Shown here: piece after piece, positions 7,083 through 56,096 of the stretch
Position numbering within the stretch: position 1 is the first letter of the stretch
Layout of the letters: each line of letters opens with the position of its first letter
Source: Neovahlkampfia damariscottae
Lineage: Eukaryota; Heterolobosea; Selenaionea; Neovahlkampfiida; Neovahlkampfiidae
Reading direction: 5' to 3'
Length of the DNA stretch: 64,000 nt
Assembly: GCA_016618085.1 (NCBI GenBank)
Contig: JABLTG010000061.1
Span: 35,498 to 99,497 of the forward strand
Notes under the pieces: model-generated
What the model was told of the DNA's origin: nothing
Databases searched by the model: none
Seen by the model: only the letters and a program-made list of their open reading frames with translations
Made by a program: the position numbers and the translations under genes

Positions 7083-10000
7083 TTATTTTAAAAATTCCAA
7101 ACTTGGATGATTTAAAAAGTATTTAGGTATTGTAATATTATCAAATTTCAAATCTAAATCAAAAATAGTTGTTTTTGAAGCATTAAAATTCACATTTGAA
7201 TTTAACTTCAATTTCAATTTTGAATCATCAGAATCATGTTCATCAATCTTCCATTGATTTAATAATTTAATAATTGATGAATCTCTTTCTTCTTTTATAT
7301 AATTTGAAATTATCTTTTTAAAATATTAATGATGATGAAGTAACTTTACTTTTGAAATTTGATTCAAATTTAAACTTGGACAAATATCCTTTCTAATATC
7401 TTCTTCTAATAATAATATTTTATTATTTATTATCAAAACATCAGACACTTGTCTTGAATATTTAAACATTTCTCTTTTAAAAAAATGAAATTAGAATTTT
7501 AGTTATTACTTTGTATTTATGTTTAATTGTTCAAACCATTGTTCAAGTAAAGAAATGTACATTTTAATATGAACACCTCTGGCTGAATATGTTTTTGAAT
7601 TTAAAATTGTATTAAATATAAATTTATCAATAAATTCACCAACATTTCGAAATAAATGATTTATAATTTCTATTTTTATAAAATTCTTTTTCATTGAAAT
7701 ATAATGTTGATTTAATAATTTTTCAATATCAGTAGATACTTCAAAATATCCCATTGATTTTTTATCATCAAAAATAGCGGAAATGATTATATTTTCTAAA
7801 TCTCTTGAAATATTATCTAAGATTAATAAATAAATATTTTCTAAAATTTGATGTAAAGAAATTAAAAATGTTGATATTTTTTCATTCTTTTCTTCTTTAT
7901 CTATTTGATTGGTCAAATTATTTTCTTCTTCTTTTTGTATCATTATATTATTTAAATAAATTGATTTAAATATTGGTAAATCTGATTTAATTTTAAATTC
8001 CTTTTTAAAATTTGAATAATTCTGAAATGAGTTTAAATAAATCTTTGGATATTCTAATTTTAATAAATTTAATAATTGATAAATTGAATTCAACCAAAAA
8101 GATAAAATTGAATTATTATTTGAAAATCTATTTATATTAAACTCTAAAGATATTAAAATATTTTCAATAAAATTTAAATTTTGATTTTTAAAAGAGTTGG
8201 TAAAATTTAAAATTGATTTAAATAAAATTAAAGAATTAGTTGGTATTTCATGTTGAAATTCAGGTTCTTTTAATAAAATTGTATTCTCTAATATAAATTT
8301 TTCAATAGATTCTTTTAAAATTTCTTTTTCTTTTTCATTTAATTTTTCATTTTTTTTAGAGTCCAATTCCACTTGTTGATTCAATTTTTTTAATTCATTT
8401 TTTATTTTTTCATTTTCATCATTTAAATGAATAAATTCATCATTTAAAAATATATTCTTTTCATTTAAATTTTCTAATTCTTCCTTTAAGTTTTCTAATT
8501 CTGTATTTAATGTTAATTCAACCATTTCTTTTTCTTTTTTTAATTTTAATTTTAATTCTTCAATAAATTCCAAATTTGAATTGAATTGATCATCCAATGA
8601 AATGGATTCATTTTTAATTTTTCTTAATTCTTCTAATTCATTTTTTAATTCTATAATTTCAATTTTATATTTATTTTCATTATCCTTTAATTCATTTTCA
8701 ATATCTTTATTTTTCAAAATTAAATATTCTTCATCTTTTTTTAATCTTTTTATTTCTTGTTCTTTTTCTTCATTTAAAATATTTAATTCATTTGTTTGAA
8801 TATTTAATTGATTTAATATATTCTTTAATTCTTCATTATTTAATTTAATTTCATTCAATTCTTTTTCTTTTATATTTTTATCAACATATTTTTCTTTTAT
8901 TTCATCATTATTCTTTTTTAATTTTTCAATTTCTTCATTTAAATATAACATTTCATCATCTATTTTATTTCTTAATTTAATTATTTCTTTATTTTTTTCT
9001 TCTTTTAATAAATCTATTTTCTTTAATATTTCATTATCAAATTTAATTTTTAAATTCAAAATTTCTTCTTCTTTTTCTTTTTTTAATTTTTTAATTTCTT
9101 CTTTTGAAATGTTCATTTCTTCATATTTTTCATTAATTAATTCTTTAATTTCTTCTTCTTTTTCTTTTTTTAATTTTTTATTTTTTTCTTTTAATTTTAA
9201 TATTTCATCATTACATATTTCTTCTTCTTCTTTTTTCTTTATTTCTTCTTTTAATTCATTTTTTATTTTCATTTCATTCTTTAATCTAATATATTCTTCA
9301 TCTTTAATTTGTTTCTCTTTATTCATTTCTTCTAATTTTTTATTCCATTCTTTTTCTAATTTATCAATATGATTAATCATTTCATTATTCTTTTCATTTA
9401 ATTCAATTTGTTTTAATTCATTCATTTTCTTCATTTCATCTTTTAATTTTTCAATTTCTTTATTCATTTCATTAACTTTATCATTATTATTTTTCATTTT
9501 ACTCTTTTCTTTTAAATCATTTTCTAATTCTATTTGTTTTAATTCATATAATTTAATAATATTATTTAAATCATCTTTTTCTTTTTCTTTTATCTTTAAT
9601 TCATCTTCAAATTCTTTCTTTTTTATTTCAATTTCATTTTTCTTTTCTTTTAATATTTCATTTTCTTCATTTAGTTTATTCAACTCATTCTCCTTTTCTT
9701 CATTCTTTATCATTTCTTTTTCTTTTTCTTCTCTTAATTTCATCATTTCATCATTTATATTTTTGATTTCTTTTTCCTTTTCATCCTTCATTTGCATCAT
9801 TTCATCATTCAAAATATTGATTTCTTTCTCTTTTTCTTCTCTTAATTTCATCATTTCATTTTTAATATTTTTGATTTCTTTTTCCTTTTCATTCAATAAA
9901 TTAATATTCTTCCCTTTTTCTTCTCTTAATTCAATCATTTCTTCATTTATATTATCAATTTCTTCCTTTTCATCTTTCCTTTTCATCATTTCATCATTCA

Positions 10001-11510
10001 ATAAATTAATTTCTTGTTCCTTTTCATTTCTTAATTTCATCATTTCATCATTTATATTGTCAATTTCTTTTTCCTTTTCATTTTTAATATTGTTAATTTC
10101 TTTTTCCTTTTCATTCAATAAATTAATATTCTTCCCTTTTTCTTCTTTTAATTCAATCATTTCATCATTCAATAAATTAATTTCTTGTTCCTTTTCTTCT
10201 CTTAATTTCATCATTTCATCATTTATATTTTTGATTTCCTTGTTCTTTTCATCATTCAATAAATTAATTTCATTTTCCTTTTCATCTCTTAATTTCTTCA
10301 TTTCATCATTTATATTTTTGATTTCCTTATTCTTTTCATCATTCAATAAATTAATTTCCTTATTCTTTTCAACTTTCATTTTCATCATTTCATCATTAAT
10401 ATTATCAATTTCTTTTTGTTTTTTCTTTAATTTTTCATTTTCATCATTTAATTTTTCATCATATTCCACTTTCAATTTATCATTATTCACTTTCATTTTT
10501 TGTACTTTATCATCCATTTCTTTTTTTAATTTCATCATTTCATCATTTTTCAATTTTTCAAAATTTTCTTTTAATTTCATCAATTCATCATCTTTTTCTT
10601 TTTTTAAATTTTCATTTAATTGTTTTTCTTTTTCAATTTTAATTTTCAAATCAAATGTTTTATCTTCAAATAATTTTTTTTCTTTTTCTAAAAGTTGAAT
10701 TGAATTTTCTTTGTTTAATAATTTCTTTTCAAAAGAATCAACTTTTTCTTTTAAATAATCAATTTGTTTCATTAAATCTTGTTCTGTCTTTGATACATCT
10801 TTCATTGATTCTAATTCTTTTATTCTTTTTTGTAATTCAACTATTTTATTTAATTCATTTACATTTGAACTGGATTGTCTTTGTTTTGGAAATAAATCTA
10901 TTAATACTTTAATTAAATATTATTGTTTACTAAAACTTGATTTTCTTTCTTTTTTAAAACTACCAGTAAAAGAAGATGAATTTGGATCATTACCACCTGA
11001 ATCTAAACCAAAAGAAAGTTCATCTTCACCTTCACCATCAAAATGTGAACTTAATGCTAAATCATTATTCAAACTTGATTTCATTGTTAAATTTAAAATA
11101 ACTTCTTTTTTTCCAACTTTGATTGGTATTTTATTTTCAGTTAAATTTTCTTCAACTTGTTCATTTATTATTTTAGTTAAATCTAATTCTCCATTTCCTA
11201 TCATTTTTTTCTTTTGTTTTTCATCAATACATTCTAATTTAAATTCTAATTTTGAACCAACAAATGTTCCTTTCTTTTCTTTGAACATTGTAGTGGATAA
11301 TTCAAATGAGTTATTGAACTCTAATTTTCCATTATTTATTGATACTACTTCAGTTTTGTTTGAATGTTTTGCACCTCTTTTCCATGTAATTTGAAAGTTA
11401 GATTTTTCATTTATTTTAGCATCTTTGAATACCTTTTCAAACTCAATGATATTTTTGATATCAAATTTGAATGAGTACTTTATTTTTACTGCTCCTAATT
11501 TTGATAACAT
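7083..11510 (-). CDS. NT-C2 / long coiled-coil / DIL-domain protein
   Basis: Four exons (11510-10931, 10897-7510, 7473-7350, 7313-7083) give 1440 aa. Residues 1 to about 150 resemble the N-terminal C2 domain of the EEIG1/EHBP1 type (KIKYSFKFDI, a conserved TWKRG, FKLE). A Gly/Ser-rich linker follows. Roughly 750 residues of almost pure heptad coiled coil come next, with tandem units such as INDEMMKLREEKE repeated many times between 9,700 and 10,400. The C-terminal 350 residues match a dilute (DIL) cargo-binding domain: NNSILSFWLNSIY, then VSDVLIINN and DICPSLNLNQI. Such a protein probably tethers a membrane (C2) to cargo or cytoskeletal factors (DIL); this role is inferred. There is no motor domain. 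Internal repeats may vary in number between strains. Confidence 0.75.
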
Positions 11511-11638
11511 TGGTAAACAAAAGTTTGTGGTTTGAGAAAATGCACCAATGAGACTATTTTGTGTTAGAAAGGTACCTTAAATAGGTCCTGTTATGAGTCC
11601 TTCAGTTGAGATTTTTATTCTCACAAAAAATCTAGTGA

Positions 11639-11692
11639 GACATGGGCAATTCGTCTCATAATGAAAATAAACGTTAGTTTTCAACTTAAAGT
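11639..11692 (+). repeat. dispersed noncoding repeat, copy 2
   Basis: Counterpart of the element at 374-424, in the same orientation. It is followed by a diverged block with ACAATAAGTG and CATCATGCAT, and then by a CCAAT box at 11791-11795 and a degraded gene. Neither copy has open reading potential of its own. Confidence 0.45.
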
Positions 11693-11801
11693 GTAGTTTA
11701 TAATTTTATTATAGCAATTAGACAATAAGTGATGTGATTAACAATAACTAAGTTTTGATTTTTACACTTGACACATCATGCATAGAACAACCAATCAGCT
11801 C

Positions 11802-12499
11802 ATGTCCAAGAAAAAGAAAACAGACCAAAAAATCAAAAAAATGGAAAAGCCACTCGAAGATTTATCAGTGACCCAAAAAGAAGAGAAAACTGAAAAGAAT
11901 CAAAGTCTAAACGAAACAAATACTCAAAGTTTAGAATTGATGGTTCAAGAATGAATTGATATGGATAAAAGGCTGTTTGACCAGTTATTGCAAGAAAACA
12001 AAACCTTAAAATTGAAAAAGATTCATTAACAAAACTTAGAGGCGCATTGCAAAATAATTTGCAAAATTGTCAAACATTGATTTTGGAAAAATCTCAAACT
12101 ACTTCAAAGGAAATAGAAACTCTACAAAGAGAAAATGAAATTCTGAAGAGCAAAAATGAGAAACTTGTTAAAGAAGTTAATCAATTGAAAATGACCATTG
12201 TTATTTTCATATCACTTCCCATTTTTTCTATGGTCATTTTCAATTGAAATTGGAAAACTTAGATAAAACAGAAGTTACAGATGATCAAATCAAACTCTAT
12301 TTTGAACAAACTTAAAGTAGAGGAGTATTTTGATGATTACTTTTCAGGTATCAATTGTATAATTGATTTGAATAAGAAAATGTCAAAAAAAAAGAAAATT
12401 GTTTTCATTCAAAGTTCATTCTTCAAAACTGGGTTTTTATTGAAACATTCACGTTTTAAGTTGAAGCCTCTTATTACTGATTACAACATTATTGCCTAA
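11802..12499 (+). pseudogene. degraded coiled-coil gene
   Basis: An ATG 7 bp after a CCAAT box opens a Lys/Glu-rich frame of 50 codons that meets TGA at 11952-11954. The same frame continues beyond the stop as helical sequence (IDMDKRLFDQLLQENKTL). A shift of frame then picks up LRGALQNNLQNCQTLILEK and further heptads to about 12190. There a short hairpin insertion (12182-12246) interrupts it, after which LENLDKTEVTDDQIKLYFEQ resumes. A Lys-rich piece ending at 12499 may or may not belong to it. One stop, one frameshift and one insertion make a pseudogene the simplest reading. I do not recognise the family. Confidence 0.55.
12182..12246. repeat. 17-bp perfect inverted repeat (hairpin insertion)
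   Basis: Arms 12182-12198 (CAATTGAAAATGACCAT) and 12230-12246 (its exact reverse complement) flank a 31-nt pyrimidine-rich loop. The 9-mer CAATTGAAA occurs directly repeated at both edges. Removing one copy plus the loop restores the coiled-coil reading frame around it. This looks like a tiny hairpin insertion with a 9-bp duplication, or a replication-slippage product. Confidence 0.6.
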
Positions 12500-23600: not shown

Positions 23601-25102
23601 TTAAATGATAGCAGCTACAATTTGAACAACATCTTCATCACATAATAAATGTGACAAACCAACTTTTTTAATTTTTAATTTTTAATTTTGTCTTTTTTTA
23701 ATTTTACCTTTTTGTGGACTATGTTTTGTTGAAGTTCCCCAAACCCATGCATACCTTTTTGAAAAATTAAGTCTTTTTTTTTTTTACTTAAAATTTTTTT
23801 TTAAATCTTGATGAACCATAACACAAAATGTTTCAACAGTTGAACCATTTCTCATAATCATAGGATCAACAAAATCAGGTGCAAAACCTTTCTTTTTTGT
23901 ATAAACTCTTAATAAATCTAAATCTTCCCATGATCTATCTAACAAATAATCTAAATTCAAATCCCAAGTACAAGAAATAACAACATTATTTTCTTGTTTT
24001 GCAATTCTATCAACATCTTCAATATTTATTGTATCAATTTTGTTATAGACAAAGAGGCATTTAATATATTGTCTATTTCCTTGAACAACATCAATAAAAT
24101 CATCTATACTTGAATCTTCTCTTAAAATTACTTCTGCATTATGAATTTCTTTTAGAAAGGTTTTTTAATAAATATAGAATTATTATTACTATAATCATGT
24201 AAAATATCTTTAACAAGTCTTTCTGTTAATGATGTTTGTTTAACCATTGCAGTAAAATGAAGTCCACCAGTTTTTCTCACAGCAAAAGTAATATTTGGTT
24301 TCTTTCTATTAATTCTAATTCCACACTCTTTTATTCTATTAATTCATTATTTTGATTAATACCTTCTAATTCATTTTCCAATAATTTTTTATGTACTTCT
24401 CCTTTGGATGCATCCAATACCATTAATATTAAATCAGCAGTTCTAATATTAAAAATGAATATGATAAATACCTTGCTGTTGCAATAACTTGTCTTTGAAA
24501 TATTAATATTTCATTTTTCTTACTTTCCTCTTCCTTTTTTTTTTTTTTTAATATTTAAATTTTACCTCTAAAAAATGTTCACTTTAAAGAAATATAAAAT
24601 TACTTTCCTTGACTTGCACCTTCAATAATACCTGGTAAATCCAAAAGTTGAATCCTATTAAAAAGAAGTTAAAAATACACTATATATTTTACTTTGTTCC
24701 TTGATAATCAATAACACCAGGAATACATGTTAATGTTGTAAATTCATAGGATGCTGTTTCAGATACTGTATTTGTTAATTTATTCAAAAGTGTAGATTTG
24801 CCCACTGAAGGAAATCCTGTTTTATTTGTATATTTTATTAAATGATCTTTCTTACCTACTAAAGCAATTCTAGCATCACCAGATTTTCTTGCTTCAAAAC
24901 CTTCAACAGATCCACCTGATTTTTTATCACCTTCAATTAATTGACCTAAAAAAAAAAAAGAAGAGTTTAAGAGTATTATTAACTTACCTCTAAGTCTTGC
25001 CAATTTTCCTTTTAATAAACCCAGATGATATTCTGTAGCTTTATTTTTTTGTGTTCTTGACATTTCATATTCAATTTCTTTAATCTTTTCAGTTAGACCC
25101 AT
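23601..25102 (-). CDS. DRG2: developmentally regulated GTP-binding protein 2
   Basis: Twelve inferred exons give 366 aa (human DRG2 is 364): 25102-24988, 24945-24856, 24816-24693, 24654-24604, 24567-24566, 24533-24524, 24492-24472, 24442-24363, 24327-24190, 24148-23788, 23754-23708, 23662-23601. The protein has the DRG N-terminus [20 protein letters not shown], Walker [33 protein letters not shown], the G4 motif VYNKID, and a TGS domain with [16 protein letters not shown], which favours DRG2 over DRG1. It works with a DFRP partner on ribosomes. Three consecutive exons are 2, 10 and 21 nt; the 2-nt one is inferred to preserve KGRG. An intron at 24855-24817 is a multiple of three and stop-free, so it could be mistaken for coding. 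Confidence 0.93.
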
Positions 25103-38756: not shown

Positions 38757-40755
38757 TTATTTCTTTTTACTTATAATCTTTTTTAATGCATTACACCAAA
38801 TATCTTTTTCGTTTTGTGTAAATGCATGTAATTCATAAACTCTTTTTTTACTTGAAACAATATTGAATCCATATTTAACTTGACCAGGTAAAACATCTAA
38901 AATATCTTTGATAACAATTGTACCTTTTATTTTACCCTAAAAAAAAGTAAATAAAACTAATAAATATTACATCCTCTTGTTCATAATAACCAATTACATC
39001 CTCATTAATTTGAAACCATCTCTTTTTCCAAGATTTTACAATACCTTTATCTCCTTTTTTATTTAAATATCCACACACTTTATATGGATCCATATCTTTG
39101 GATAGATTTGATTTATCAGTTGATGGTGCTGTATAATCAGGATCAAGACTAGCACTCTTATATTCTGGTTCTTTTATTTCTTGTTGAACTGGTTTCTCTT
39201 CATTGTTTGTTGTTGTTGTTGTTGTTGTTGGTGCTGGTTCAACCACTTCTGGTATTGTTTCTGTTTTTGTTTCAGATATGGTTTGTTCAACAGGTTTTTC
39301 TTCATCTTGAATTGTATTTTGTTCAATAACTTTTTCAACTGTATTTTCTTCAAAATTTGTTACTTCACCTTCATCTATTTCTTCCATTTCTTCTTCTTCT
39401 TCTTCTTCATCTAAATTTTCAAGAGATTCAACAATTGCAACTGTATGAGTTTGTCCACAAGATATATGTAATACTTTAATTCCTTCAAGTGTTTCCATTT
39501 TTTGTGGAAACAATTGTGAAGTTGTATCACCTAATCCTAATTGTCCATATTCACTTGAACCCCATGTATAAATATCTCCATTTTCTTTAATTTATATTAA
39601 TATTTTAAATATATTTATTACCTGCTACAACTGCAACATGATTGGTAGATGAAGCTGCAATTTTTGTAATTTTTGGAAGGTCTGGAATAATACAAAGTAA
39701 ACTATGAGGTTGTTCACCATGCCCACTTCCATCTAAACCACCTTTACCACAACTAAATAATTTTCCATCTTTGGTTAATGCTAGTGTATTAAATTGTAAA
39801 CATTCAATTTGAACAAATTCAAATTTTGAACTAACTGATAAAGTTTCTTCTGAAATTAATGGTCCAGTTTGAACTAATTCAACTAATCTTGGATAGAAAT
39901 CAGTTTCCTTATTTTTTTGAAGTATTCTTCCTAATTGTCCAAGAAAATTATTACCCCAAGTAAAGAACTCTTTATCTTTTGTTAAACATGCCATATGTGA
40001 TGTACCACATTGTACTGAAACTACATATTCATCTTTTAAAATTTGTATTTTTGTTGGAAGAAAACAATCAAGTTCATCACCTTTGATTTAAAATTAATAT
40101 TTAACATCAAATAAATACCATGACCTAAAACACCAAAAGCACCTTTACCCCATGTATAACTAAATAATGTAAAAAATGATAAATGTAATTCTTACACTTC
40201 TCCTTGTTCAGTTACTGCTGCCATAAATTCGTTACCAGCAGCAATATCAACAATATCTGTTAGGTTCTCTATTAAAGATGGTACAGGAACAATATATTTT
40301 GAATATTGTGTGAGTATTTGTTCAGATAAACCAAGTTGACCTAAAGGTTAGATTTTTTTTTAACAATTTTTTTTTTTTACCATGAGTTCCAGTTCCTTAA
40401 ATAAAAATTGTTATAAAAATAGAAAAGTACCCCAAGTATAAACTTTTTTGTCTCCTGTCAGTGCAGCAATAAAATTAGATCCACATACAATTTTGGTGAC
40501 ATTTCGGTTTTGTAATTCATGCCAAATCACTAAATCTTCAACAGGTTCATTATTTATATTCCACCAATCTGTGTCACCTGTAGTATATATCAAGTCATCG
40601 TCTGTTAAAATTGCAGTAAATTTAAATCCGGCTCTGATATCAATGGCTGTAGTATCTCTAATAATTTGAGCAGGTTCAGGTATTGGCTCTTGATCCATGT
40701 CTGTTGAGCCCCATAATAAGACATCAACAAATTCTTCATCTTCTTCTAAAACCAT
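38757..40755 (-). CDS. RCC1-repeat protein with C-terminal PH domain
   Basis: Seven exons (40755-40431, 40395-40381, 40340-40196, 40159-40119, 40080-39622, 39584-38971, 38936-38757) give 592 aa. RCC1 blades carry VYTWGTGTHGQLGL, TWGKGAFGVLGHG, FTWGNNFLGQLGR and DIYTWGSSEYGQLGLGD, with the usual HISCGQTHTVAI type strands. An acidic Glu/Thr/Pro-rich linker leads to a PH domain (CGYLNKKGDKGIVKSWKKR, YELHAFTQNEKDIWCNAL). RCC1 propellers often act as small-GTPase exchange or scaffold modules, and PH domains bind phosphoinositides, so membrane-linked signalling is likely but the partner is unknown. One exon is 15 nt and another 41 nt. Confidence 0.87.
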
Positions 40756-51429: not shown

Positions 51430-52209
51430 ATGAGTGACTTTTATGATCCATTACTCAATCCAAATCCAAATAAGAAACCTGAAAAAGTAAAAGATTCAGC
51501 TTTCTTTTCTGAAAATGCACCAATAAATAAAAAAAAGAATTTATTTGATAATGTTTCTGATGATTCATCAGATTCAGACTCTGAAGAATTGACAACAAGA
51601 AAAATTAAAGTACAAAAGAAGAAGATTGAAAAACCAAAAGTATCTGATAATTCTAAAAACAATAGTCCAGTGAATAAAAATATAAAAAAAAAAAGTGCAG
51701 AAGACGAATATAAAGAAGCATTAGAAAATGCAAGAAAAGATGTAAAAGAAAGAAAAAGAAGAGAAGAAGAAGAAAAGAAATTATTTGAAGATAAAAAAAA
51801 AGAAGAAAAAAAAAAAGAAGAAAAAAAAAAATTAGAAAGAGAAAAAGAAAAAGAAAAAATAAAAAAAGAAAGAGAAGAAAAAGAAAGAAAAGAGAAAGAA
51901 TTATTTGAATTAATGAAAGAGAAATCAATACATATATCAGATGATGATGATGAAGACTTGGATACTTTATTAAAAATTGATGATGATATTGATAATTTAT
52001 CTATTTCAAATAATAATACAACAACAACAATAAAAAAAAAGAAACCTGAATTACCAAAAAGAAATAAAAAAAAGAATAATGATGATTCAAATATTGATGA
52101 TTTATTTTCTGATGTTAAATCAACTAATATTGATTCAGATGATTTTGATTTTGATAAATATATTCAAAAATCATCAACTACAAAAAAGAAAGGTCTTTTT
52201 GATTTTTAA
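51430..52209 (+). CDS. charged, largely disordered protein with LF motifs
   Basis: An intronless 259-aa protein. It has a Pro/Asn N-terminus (FYDPLLNPNPNKK), Ser/Asp clusters, and a long Lys/Glu single-helix stretch between about residues 90 and 165. Short acidic hydrophobic motifs recur: LFDNVSDDSS, DDLFSDV and a terminal KKKGLFDF. Repeated LFD or LF-acidic motifs are found in the tail of the WASH-complex protein FAM21, but its globular head is absent here, so this is only a resemblance. I do not assign a function. It is preceded by a CCAAT box at 51387-51391. Confidence 0.6.
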   Translation: MSDFYDPLLNPNPNKKPEKVKDSAFFSENAPINKKKNLFDNVSDDSSDSDSEELTTRKIKVQKKKIEKPKVSDNSKNNSPVNKNIKKKSAEDEYKEALENARKDVKERKRREEEEKKLFEDKKKEEKKKEEKKKLEREKEKEKIKKEREEKERKEKELFELMKEKSIHISDDDDEDLDTLLKIDDDIDNLSISNNNTTTTIKKKKPELPKRNKKKNNDDSNIDDLFSDVKSTNIDSDDFDFDKYIQKSSTTKKKGLFDF

Positions 52210-52226
52210 TAAAAAATGATATATTT

Positions 52227-55200
52227 TTATTCTTCTTCTTCTTCTTCTTGTTCCATTATATCATCTCCTGTTGGTTCATATTCAATATTTTCCATTTCAT
52301 CTTTTTCTTTTTCTTCTTCTTCTATTTCAATATATTCATTATCACTTTTATATTCTTTTAATTTATTATCTAACATTTTATAAACTAATTCACCCATTTC
52401 TTTTAAATTTTTAATTTTATTATTTTCTAAATATAAATAATCAGTTGGATGTTTAAATAATTGATTTAAAGATGGTTGTAATTCAATACAATTTTCAAAT
52501 AATTCTCTTTTACCAATAATATATAAACCTAATCTTGCTCTTGATAATGAAACAATAAATCTTTTTAAATCTCTTAAATATCCAACAGATTTTGTTCTAA
52601 CAAGGGATAATAAAATAACTAAATTTGGATAAAAAAAAAAAAAAAAACTTACAATCATTTTGTTGACCTTGATAATTATCAACAGTTGAAACATGACATG
52701 ATTTTAAAAATGGAATATTATCACATCTTCTTTTTAAAATATCTTTAATTAAATCTTTTTGACCATTATAAGTAGTTAATATTGTAATATTATCTTTATG
52801 ATAACCAATTAAACGCATATACATATAAATAGAAACAATAAATTCAGCTTCTTTTAAATTTTGAAAATAAAATTGATTTAATTTAATTTCATCATTATTT
52901 TCATTTAAATTAAAGAATTGATAATTATATTTAAAACCTAAATTAGATATTTTAAATTGATTATTATTTTGATTTAAATCTAATATTTGTGATTTATAAT
53001 TAACTTTCCAAATATTTGATAATTCACTTCTCATTCTACCTTGTGAATTTAATTGAATAAAAGGAACATTTAAACGAATTAATCTTTGAAATAAAGATTG
53101 ATTAAAATTATTATATTTTTTTAAATGTTGATATTTAATAATTGGATTTAATTGATTTTCATCTCCTAAAATAATAATTCTTTTTAATTTTTTATTTGAA
53201 TTTAATTGTAATATCATTGATATAAATGATTCAATTTCTAATATTTGAGATGATTCTTCAATAATTAAATTATCAAATTCAAAATGATTATTAAAAAAAT
53301 AATTTCTTTTTAATGCAGAATATGTTGATGTCATTCCAATTATTTTTGATATTGATGTTAATATAAATTTCTCTCTTTCTTGATTTGATCTAATAATTTC
53401 AAATGATTTATATTCTTCTAATTCTTTAAATAGATTTTCTATTTTTAAAAAATATTCATTTGATTTTTTAAATAATATTTCAAATTTCTTTTCTTTTTTA
53501 AATTCATTTTCATTTTTAAAATATTGATAAAATGGGAAATTTAATTTTAAATAATTTATATCTTTTTCTTTTTCACATTTTAATTTAAAATTTAACCAAT
53601 TAGGTAATAATATCTTATTAAAATAATAAAAACATGTTTCACAAGTTTGTGAATAATTTGAATTTAATTTTGAAACTTCTTCTAATAAATTTAATCTTCT
53701 TTGTAAAATATAATTCATTCTACCATATTTTGTAAAATTTGAATATTCTTTTAATTCAATTTCACCATGTCCTAATCTCAATAAATGACTTGGATTTATC
53801 ATTTCACTATTAATTATCTTTTTAAATATTTCATTCAATCCATTATTAGAATGTGTAATTATTAAATTTCTTTCATTATTTTTATAAAGATTTAATATTG
53901 TTTGTACTGCTACATCCTTTTTAAAAAGTTATAATATTTTATATCACTTACTGTTTTACCTGTACCTGGAGCACCATTAATTAATGTTAAACCTAAATTC
54001 ATTCCAGATAAAATGGATTCAAATTGATTCTTTGTATATTTAATTTCATTTTTCATTTTAAATTCATCATTTTTAATGGATTCAAATCTTTCAATTTCTT
54101 TTGATTCTTTATTTAAATAAACTTTAAATGGTGTTAATGATGATTTATTTAATGATAATTTTGGATATAATTCATTTAAATGATTAACATTTAAAATAGT
54201 ATCATATAAATTTAATTCATTTAAAGAATTTGAAATATTTTTAAAATTTGAATCTTGTGGATTTCCATAACCTAAAAATAAATCATTAAACCAATCAGGT
54301 AAAATTAATTCATTTTCATTTAAAATTAAATTCTTGATTGTTTCTAAAATAGATTTAAAATTATTTTCTTTTGAATTTATTTTTAAAATTAAATTAAATT
54401 TTCCCAGATCAACACCATTTTCATTATCTTTTTCGTATTGAATTTTATCTAATTTAATTTTTAATTTTCTTTCTGAACCAAATAATTTATTTGAATCAAA
54501 ATTTGAATCAATATATTTTGTACCATCTAAATCTTCTTGATGAATTACTTCACAACCTCTAATTAATTTAATTGAATTTGATAATGGATTAGATTGATTT
54601 AATATATCAATATTTAATAACATTAAAATATCAAATTGTTTAATCTCTTCAAATTCTTTTCTATTTTCTTTTTTTAAATTTAATAAAGAATAATTTAAAT
54701 ATGCTTCAACAAATTCATTATTATTTGAATCTAATATTCTAAAATCTTTTAAACCAACACAATACTTATAATCACCAATAAATTCAGTTGAATTTGTAAT
54801 TATATTTCTTCTTGGTTTCATTTTTAAAATTGCTTCTTCTATTTCTAATTTTAAATTAAAAATTGAAGATTCTTTGAATAATTTAAAATTTCTAATTAAA
54901 TAATCTTTAAAAGAAAGAAATTGTAAATTTAATTTTGGTAATATTTCTTTTTCTTTTTTAAAAATATCTTTTTCTGTTGGAAATAAAATAACTTGTTCAA
55001 AATTTTCTTTTTTTATTTCTTCAAAATTTGAAATTAAAATTTCAATTAAAAATTCTTCATCTTCTTTATTTCTAATAGTAATATTTAATCTATCTGATAA
55101 TTCAATCAATTCATTTAAATCTAAAATAGAAAACCATTTCTTTAAATTATATCTAATTTTTAAACTTGATATATTTCTAATAGATAATTCTTTTAAATTC

Positions 55201-56096
55201 TTTTGATGAAATTTAAAACATATTTTTTGTAAATTTAAAATTCTATTTTCTAATTCTTTTGTTGTCATTTCAAAATTTAAATAATATTCAAATAAATTTA
55301 AATATTTTGAGTTTAAAAAATAAAATTTACAATAACATAATATTCTTAAATCATCTAATAAAATTTGAATAAATTTTCGAGTTGGTAATTGTGATAATAA
55401 ATCAATTAATAATTCTAAAATTAAATCACATATTTTTAATTCTTCTTCTTTTAAATTTTCTTTTTTTATGAATGTTATCAAATCATCATTTAATAAATTA
55501 AAAATAAAATTTGATTCTAATTTTGTGCTTTTTTTTATTCTTTTTTCATAAATTTTTTTTAATTTTTTATCATTTTCAAATTCAAAATTTCTTCTATTTT
55601 CACCAATATGAATTAAAATTTGTGGTCCAATTAAATTAAAACATTCATTTCTTATCATTTCAATTTCAAAACTTTGAAAACAAATAATTAAAAATGAAAG
55701 GTATTCTTCCTTTTCTTTCATTGAATTAATTTCACCATATAAATTTAAATACTTTTTAAAAAATGTTGAAAATAAAATATCATTTCTTTCAAAGATTTCT
55801 AACCAATTTAATATTCCATCTTGTTGTCTTTTCTTTTCATTAATCATTAAAATAATTGACATAACATGTGAATAACTTGATTTATCATTGAAATTTAACC
55901 AAAGATAATTTTCAAAATAATGAGTGTATTCAAGAAGTGTTATTTTTTTTGAATCAAAATTACTTCCAAAAAGGTCTTCTTTGTAAATATTTTCAATCAA
56001 TTTGGAATCATATTTAGTTTTTTTTAACCAATTCTTTTTTGCTTTTTCGTTCAATTTGTCTTCCATCATTTCACTCAACAAAGGTGTTTCGTTCAT
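52227..56096 (-). CDS. AQR: Aquarius (intron-binding RNA helicase)
   Basis: Three exons (56096-53952, 53916-52653, 52618-52227) give 1266 aa. The ARM-like N-terminal half carries LPTRKFIQILLDDLRIL and LPKLNLQFLSFKDYLIRNF. The SF1 helicase core has Walker A NGAPGTGKTDVA, ITHSNNGLNEIF, LLRLGHGE, a motif II IIEESSQILEIESF, GDENQLNPIIK, ILTTYNGQKDLI and STVDNYQGQQND, then SLSRARLGLYI. The tail is acidic. Aquarius joins the spliceosome via the intron-binding complex, which suits a genome full of introns. Motif II reads EESS where the usual form is (D/E)EAA. An upstream in-frame ATG at 56147 overlaps a CCAAT box, so the ATG at 56096 is preferred. Confidence 0.93.

Follow-up and report, generated by a model that had tools for sequence, protein, structure and literature searches.

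A two-nucleotide exon predicted in the DRG2 gene of an AT-rich single-celled eukaryote with very short introns

The DNA analyzed here, a window of 64 kb in one contig (C265) of a genome of 20.4 Mb and 307 contigs, carries on its minus strand a gene of 12 exons for a GTP-binding protein. The predicted product is DRG2 (developmentally regulated GTP-binding protein 2), nearer to DRG2/Rbg2 than to DRG1/Rbg1: the Pfam families MMR_HSR1, MMR_HSR1_Xtn, and TGS, which correspond to the G domain, its C-terminal extension, and the TGS domain, were each found above their cut-offs, residues 2-362 were aligned with Ribosome-interacting GTPase 2 (Rbg2, 7nrc) at an E-value of 2.4e-139, the protein scored 467 bits against Rbg2 versus 380 bits against Rbg1, and several of its best matches bear the name DRG2. 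A separate DRG1-like gene is present in the same genome, and in this paralogue GKGRGRQ lies within one open frame. A search of the genome for a second copy of DRG2 returned, besides this locus, just the DRG1-like gene and two weak GTPase matches, and there is consequently no intron-free copy or allele with which the locus could be compared. The protein is a cellular switch of a common sort, and its host is a single-celled eukaryote whose DNA is rich in A+T. The G+C content of the window is 23% and drops to only 17% at positions 52001-56000, while positions 8001-12000 are marked by a strong GC skew (-0.43) and an AT skew of -0.29; a tRNA scan of the 64-kb window, run with bacterial settings and uninformative here, returned none.

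Table 1. Features of the DRG2 locus, the two single introns proposed as rivals, and a 5-nt exon elsewhere in the genome. Positions are those of the window unless a contig is named.
Feature	Position	Strand	Description
DRG2 gene, start to stop codon	25102-23601	minus	12 exons; CDS 1101 nt; 366 aa
Exon 4	24654-24604	minus	51 nt; 3' end ...CAAGGAAA
Intron A	24603-24568	minus	36 nt; GTAATTTT...TTTTTTAG
Exon 5 (predicted)	24567-24566	minus	2 nt; AG
Intron B	24565-24534	minus	32 nt; GTAAAATTT...(A)15 G
Exon 6	24533-24524	minus	10-nt microexon; GAAGAGGAAA
Intron C	24523-24493	minus	31 nt
Exon 7	24492-24472	minus	21 nt
Rival single GT-AA intron	24603-24536	minus	68 nt; mRNA unchanged
Rival single GT-AG intron	24603-24530	minus	74 nt; ends GGAAG; Gly-Arg lost
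5-nt exon GACCT (predicted)	C285:143999-144003 (locus L031, 3999-4003)	minus	Mitochondrial Obg-type GTPase gene

In the protein-guided model, all 11 introns of DRG2 are of the GT-AG type and measure 29-45 nt (Table 1). In exon 5, the A would complete the Lys codon of KGRG and the G would open the Gly codon; being internal and coding, with canonical intron ends on both sides, the exon belongs to the microexons (1-15 nt class). An in-frame Lys-Gly-Arg-Gly after DLPG, which we take to be the G3 motif, needs introns A, B, and C all to be removed. This arrangement had been put forward in an earlier, sequence-only reading of the same DNA, which described a 2-nt exon AG between introns of 36 and 32 nt within a 12-exon model totaling 1101 nt in frame; the sum of the exons agrees with that total, and the layout was confirmed as unique by the enumeration described below. 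With slashes marking the exon-intron boundaries, the 12 coding bases AAA/AG/GAAGAGGAAA/A (24654-24472) hold three introns. The exon end and donor start GGAAA/GTAA is common to introns A and C, a likeness that might reflect a shared origin.

All non-overlapping sets of GT-AG introns, with each intron at least 20 nt long, were enumerated between positions 24620 and 24474. There were 278 such sets, 93 of which stay in frame; 62 of these are free of stop codons, and they encode 38 distinct peptides. The conserved peptide GASQGKGRGKQV arises from just one of the 278 combinations, the version with the 2-nt exon, and GASQGKGRGKQVIATA is obtained with a single set among the 278. A nested search, in which up to four introns of at least 20 nt could be excised in any order, added no canonical route and left the number of solutions for the conserved peptide at one; the earlier proposition that KGRG is kept only with the 2-nt exon thus holds true among canonical GT-AG solutions, nested excision included. 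Use of the second AG of TTAGAG/GTAAAA would leave an exon of zero nucleotides, and this candidate was absent among the combinations that yield the conserved peptide.

The weight given to this peptide comes from the relatives of the protein. Among the best 120 of 7,980 matches, D(L/T)PG and QV are the same distance apart in 120 of 120, and Rbg2 (7nrc) shares this spacing; KGRG is exact in 112 of these best 120 of the 7,980, and the remaining eight differ by one or two residues with the length kept. The 38 stop-free in-frame peptides were all scored against a DRG2 profile built from the 113 relatives that are 355-400 aa long, and no alternative equaled the version with the 2-nt exon, which scored 644.5 bits, 12.3 bits above the 632.2 bits of the next best. 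These comparisons support the 2-nt exon as the sole canonical solution that would keep the constant spacing in this part of the G domain, and the conservation of the protein suggests that exon 5 would be included in the mature mRNA.

A gene finder that made no use of protein data was built from the base composition of coding, intron, and intergenic DNA, splice-site matrices, and intron lengths, with introns of 20-150 nt allowed. Training used 264 kb of DNA, to which contig C285 contributed 190 kb, contig C272 10 kb, and the window the remainder, and the seed consisted of nine DRG2 introns, C among them and neither A nor B. Introns beside exons shorter than 45 nt were excluded from the training of the site and length models, which placed introns A, B, and C outside that training. 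The seed model alone called a 54-nt intron (24619-24566) and placed intron B immediately after it, which left no exon there; this path was abandoned once the finder was trained. The trained finder predicted 123 genes and 323 introns in the 264 kb, with 0 to 10 predicted introns per gene (DRG2 having 10 as predicted and 11 in the protein-guided model), and a sharp upper edge in predicted intron lengths is visible in the window and in loci L017-L036.

The lengths themselves fall within a narrow band. Among predicted introns with long flanking exons, 277 of 281 measure 23-46 nt and four of 281 exceed 102 nt, and none of the 323 predicted introns measures 47-102 nt. When a flat length prior was applied to the same genes, 298 of 311 introns fell in 23-46 nt, with four in 47-102 nt, five above, and four below; under the trained prior, three of those four introns of 47-102 nt came out shorter than 47 nt and one was read as coding. 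The empty range of 47-102 nt counts against one intron of 68 or 74 nt at the DRG2 locus.

Blind to protein similarity, the trained finder predicts the 2-nt exon and 10 of the 11 DRG2 introns; the one that it overlooked (24855-24817) is in frame and was read through. Introns A (36 nt) and B (32 nt) lie within the range of the genome for both length and splice-site strength: relative to the 281 introns, the donor and acceptor of A stand at the 50th and 71st percentiles, those of B at the 85th and 68th, and those of C at the 91st and 16th. Barring the donor of B cost the finder 13.4 nats, and barring the acceptor of A cost just 0.44 nat, a small penalty because a rival path with a 22-nt intron exists; the base statistics therefore firmly back the donor of B, and it is the protein that decides where intron A ends. 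The path with the 22-nt intron (24603-24582) carries a 15-residue insertion, scored 608.7 bits, and was ruled out by the protein alone.

Other accounts of these bases were weighed against two introns and a 2-nt exon. The one that survives best, although we consider it improbable, is the single 68-nt GT-AA intron, which would call for one splicing event rather than two and would leave an identical coding sequence, because the two bases preceding exon 6 are also AG. Its 3' end, AA, would be abnormal, with an acceptor that scores below those of all 281 introns (all of which were required to end in AG), its length is one at which none of the 323 predicted introns occurs, and it would leave the strong inner AG...GTAAAA sites unexplained. 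The expectation for such sites was gauged from 40,000 random 70-nt introns drawn from the intron composition of this genome: some legal GT-AG split with an exon of 1-11 nt was available in 1,756 of the 40,000 and one with an exon of 2 nt in 376, and both inner sites were as strong as those of DRG2 in two of the 40,000 for exons of 1-11 nt and in none of the 40,000 for exons of 2 nt, figures that are a rough guide since the site-score thresholds were set post hoc. The GT-AA intron also bears on how exon 5 might be proven. The sequence-only reading had regarded the presence of AG in the transcript as decisive, but a single GT-AA intron yields an identical cDNA, and RT-PCR alone cannot prove exon 5 because the mRNA is the same.

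The single 74-nt GT-AG intron had likewise been raised beforehand, and it does exist, with the ending that had been ascribed to it; as had also been said, it would remove Gly-Arg from the G domain at this point. It has canonical ends, stays in frame, and encodes the peptide with the second-best protein score (632.2 bits, the version without Gly-Arg). We nevertheless regard it as very unlikely, given that the length is kept in 120 of 120 relatives (the best 120 of 7,980 matches), that its acceptor stands at the 2.8th percentile of the 281 introns, and that none of the 323 predicted introns falls in its length range. An error in the assembly is given a comparably slight chance: if two bases had been lost before GAAGAGGAAA by the A15 run, a homopolymer and as such a plausible site of error, a single 70-nt GT-AG intron would suffice. 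A miscount of the A run would, however, fall inside an intron and have no effect; two specific bases must be missing, 70 nt is also within the empty range of intron lengths, and the 70-nt intron as assembled shifts the frame, with a stop at most 13 codons past the junction. The least probable account of all is a spliceosomal twin intron (stwintron), whose outer intron has one of its splice elements split by an inner one. Two neighboring short introns that are taken out one after the other are reminiscent of stwintrons as far as the descriptions at hand go, but exhaustive nested excision of GT-AG introns (20 nt or longer) leaves only the side-by-side solution, in which no outer intron has a split element.

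We thus hold it to be highly likely, from the base statistics and the protein taken together, that exon 5 is a constitutive 2-nt exon, AG, between two separately removed, intron-defined introns. At an intron length of about 35 nt, it is probably the introns rather than the exons that the splicing machinery recognizes. Two bases separate the end of A from the start of B, and a spliceosome would presumably be unable to hold both sites simultaneously, in which case introns A and B would be removed stepwise. If A were removed first, the donor of B would change from GAG/GTAAAA to AAG/GTAAAA, which is slightly better (its score is 6.05 before and 6.59 after the removal of A); if B were removed first, the AG would join GAAGAGGAAA as one 12-nt exon, after which A would leave. 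The mRNA would be identical whichever of the two goes first. The arrangement probably originated through separate intron insertions into AAA/AG/GAAG and not through selection for a tiny exon.

Very small exons were also predicted elsewhere in this genome. Among the 224 internal exons predicted in the 264 kb, six are of 20 nt or less (2, 5, 10, 15, 16, and 20 nt) and three are of 10 nt or less (2, 5, and 10 nt), two of the latter belonging to DRG2. The 5-nt exon lies in a gene for a mitochondrial Obg-type GTPase; of 25 GT-AG combinations, only the one with this exon preserves GPDGGDGG, and the protein at that point aligns without gaps to Mitochondrial ribosome-associated GTPase 2 (7odt). It is a well-supported prediction, and it would extend very small exons here beyond DRG2. 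A 15-nt exon was predicted on the minus strand at 40381-40395 of the window, in a gene whose product resembles an RCC1-type repeat protein.

In a tree of DRG2 proteins (115 rows, the query and 114 of the 120 relatives, those of 345-400 aa; a single gene and a quick method), the query pairs with P0003 at 75% identity and a support of 99. A 7-row group that joins the query with Naegleria, Willaertia, Acrasis, and a Percolomonas-like entry, all heteroloboseans, received an SH-aLRT of 92, below the 95 mark and in a quick one-gene tree; the 13-row set that encloses this group also includes a Eutreptiella group and received a support of 97. The organism is thus probably a heterolobosean. A broader view, which we offer tentatively and consider rather doubtful, is that of a compact heterolobosean-like genome with an intron ceiling of about 46 nt, no exon minimum, and recurrent exons of 1-5 bases, a pattern that would be understood as free intron insertion combined with strict, intron-defined removal. 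If this were true, three of 224 exons at 10 nt or less would correspond to a large number in the 20.4 Mb as a whole.

An exon that is just one or two bases long puts exon definition by the spliceosome to the test: at 2 nt there is no exon for anything to bind, and recognition must take each intron as a unit. A case in a genome whose introns are very short and narrow in range would suggest that there is no exon minimum under intron definition. For annotation the predicted exon carries a warning, since a model without it loses Gly-Arg, shifts the frame, or requires a GT-AA intron.

The prediction of a 2-nt exon in DRG2 is well supported, and the kind of gene structure to which it would belong is rare but already on record. 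The sequence-only reading had called such exons extremely rare; rare they are, and yet exons below 6 nt have already been published (PMC4674806, PMC8831610, PMC12940212). In the open-access literature searched, we found neither a two-nucleotide exon by that name nor microexons linked with Naegleria, and the terms "2-nt" and "2 nt" are absent from the main texts of PMC8831610 and PMC12409088. Detection of exons under 3 nt from reads is described as prone to many false positives (PMC8831610, in the sections available). The proven 1-nt nuclear cases that we found are from plants and a fungus, and DRG2 would add another lineage.

As far as the available parts of these accounts go, the closest counterparts are the single-nucleotide exons of APC11 in Arabidopsis, shown by cDNA and minigenes (PMC4674806), and of VPS55 in land plants, shown by RNA-seq and RT-PCR (PMC8831610). 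Like the predicted exon 5 of DRG2, each is a constitutive or mostly included coding exon, no more than two bases long, on which the frame of a conserved protein depends, and each was overlooked by annotation, as exon 5 was; the plant exons are of 1 nt and have proof from RNA, whereas exon 5 would be of 2 nt, lies between introns of 32-36 nt, and is predicted from the sequence. The single-nucleotide exon of CYP621A in Fusarium, reported in 20 orthologues with splicing confirmed by SRA data in two species (PMC12940212, in part), assembles a conserved PKG motif much as exon 5 would assemble KGRG, and differs in being of 1 nt and not 2. The introduction of the same paper states that exons of 2-5 bp occur in Arabidopsis, Drosophila, and humans; these fall in the size class of exon 5, although in other lineages, and a 2-nt exon may therefore have a precedent. 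Recursive splicing at the ratchet points of Drosophila (PMC8605326, as far as the portion at hand describes it) resembles the arrangement in DRG2 in its nearly adjacent acceptor and donor and its stepwise removal, and DRG2 would depart from it in that the reading frame demands the first AG and in that the introns are tiny rather than long.
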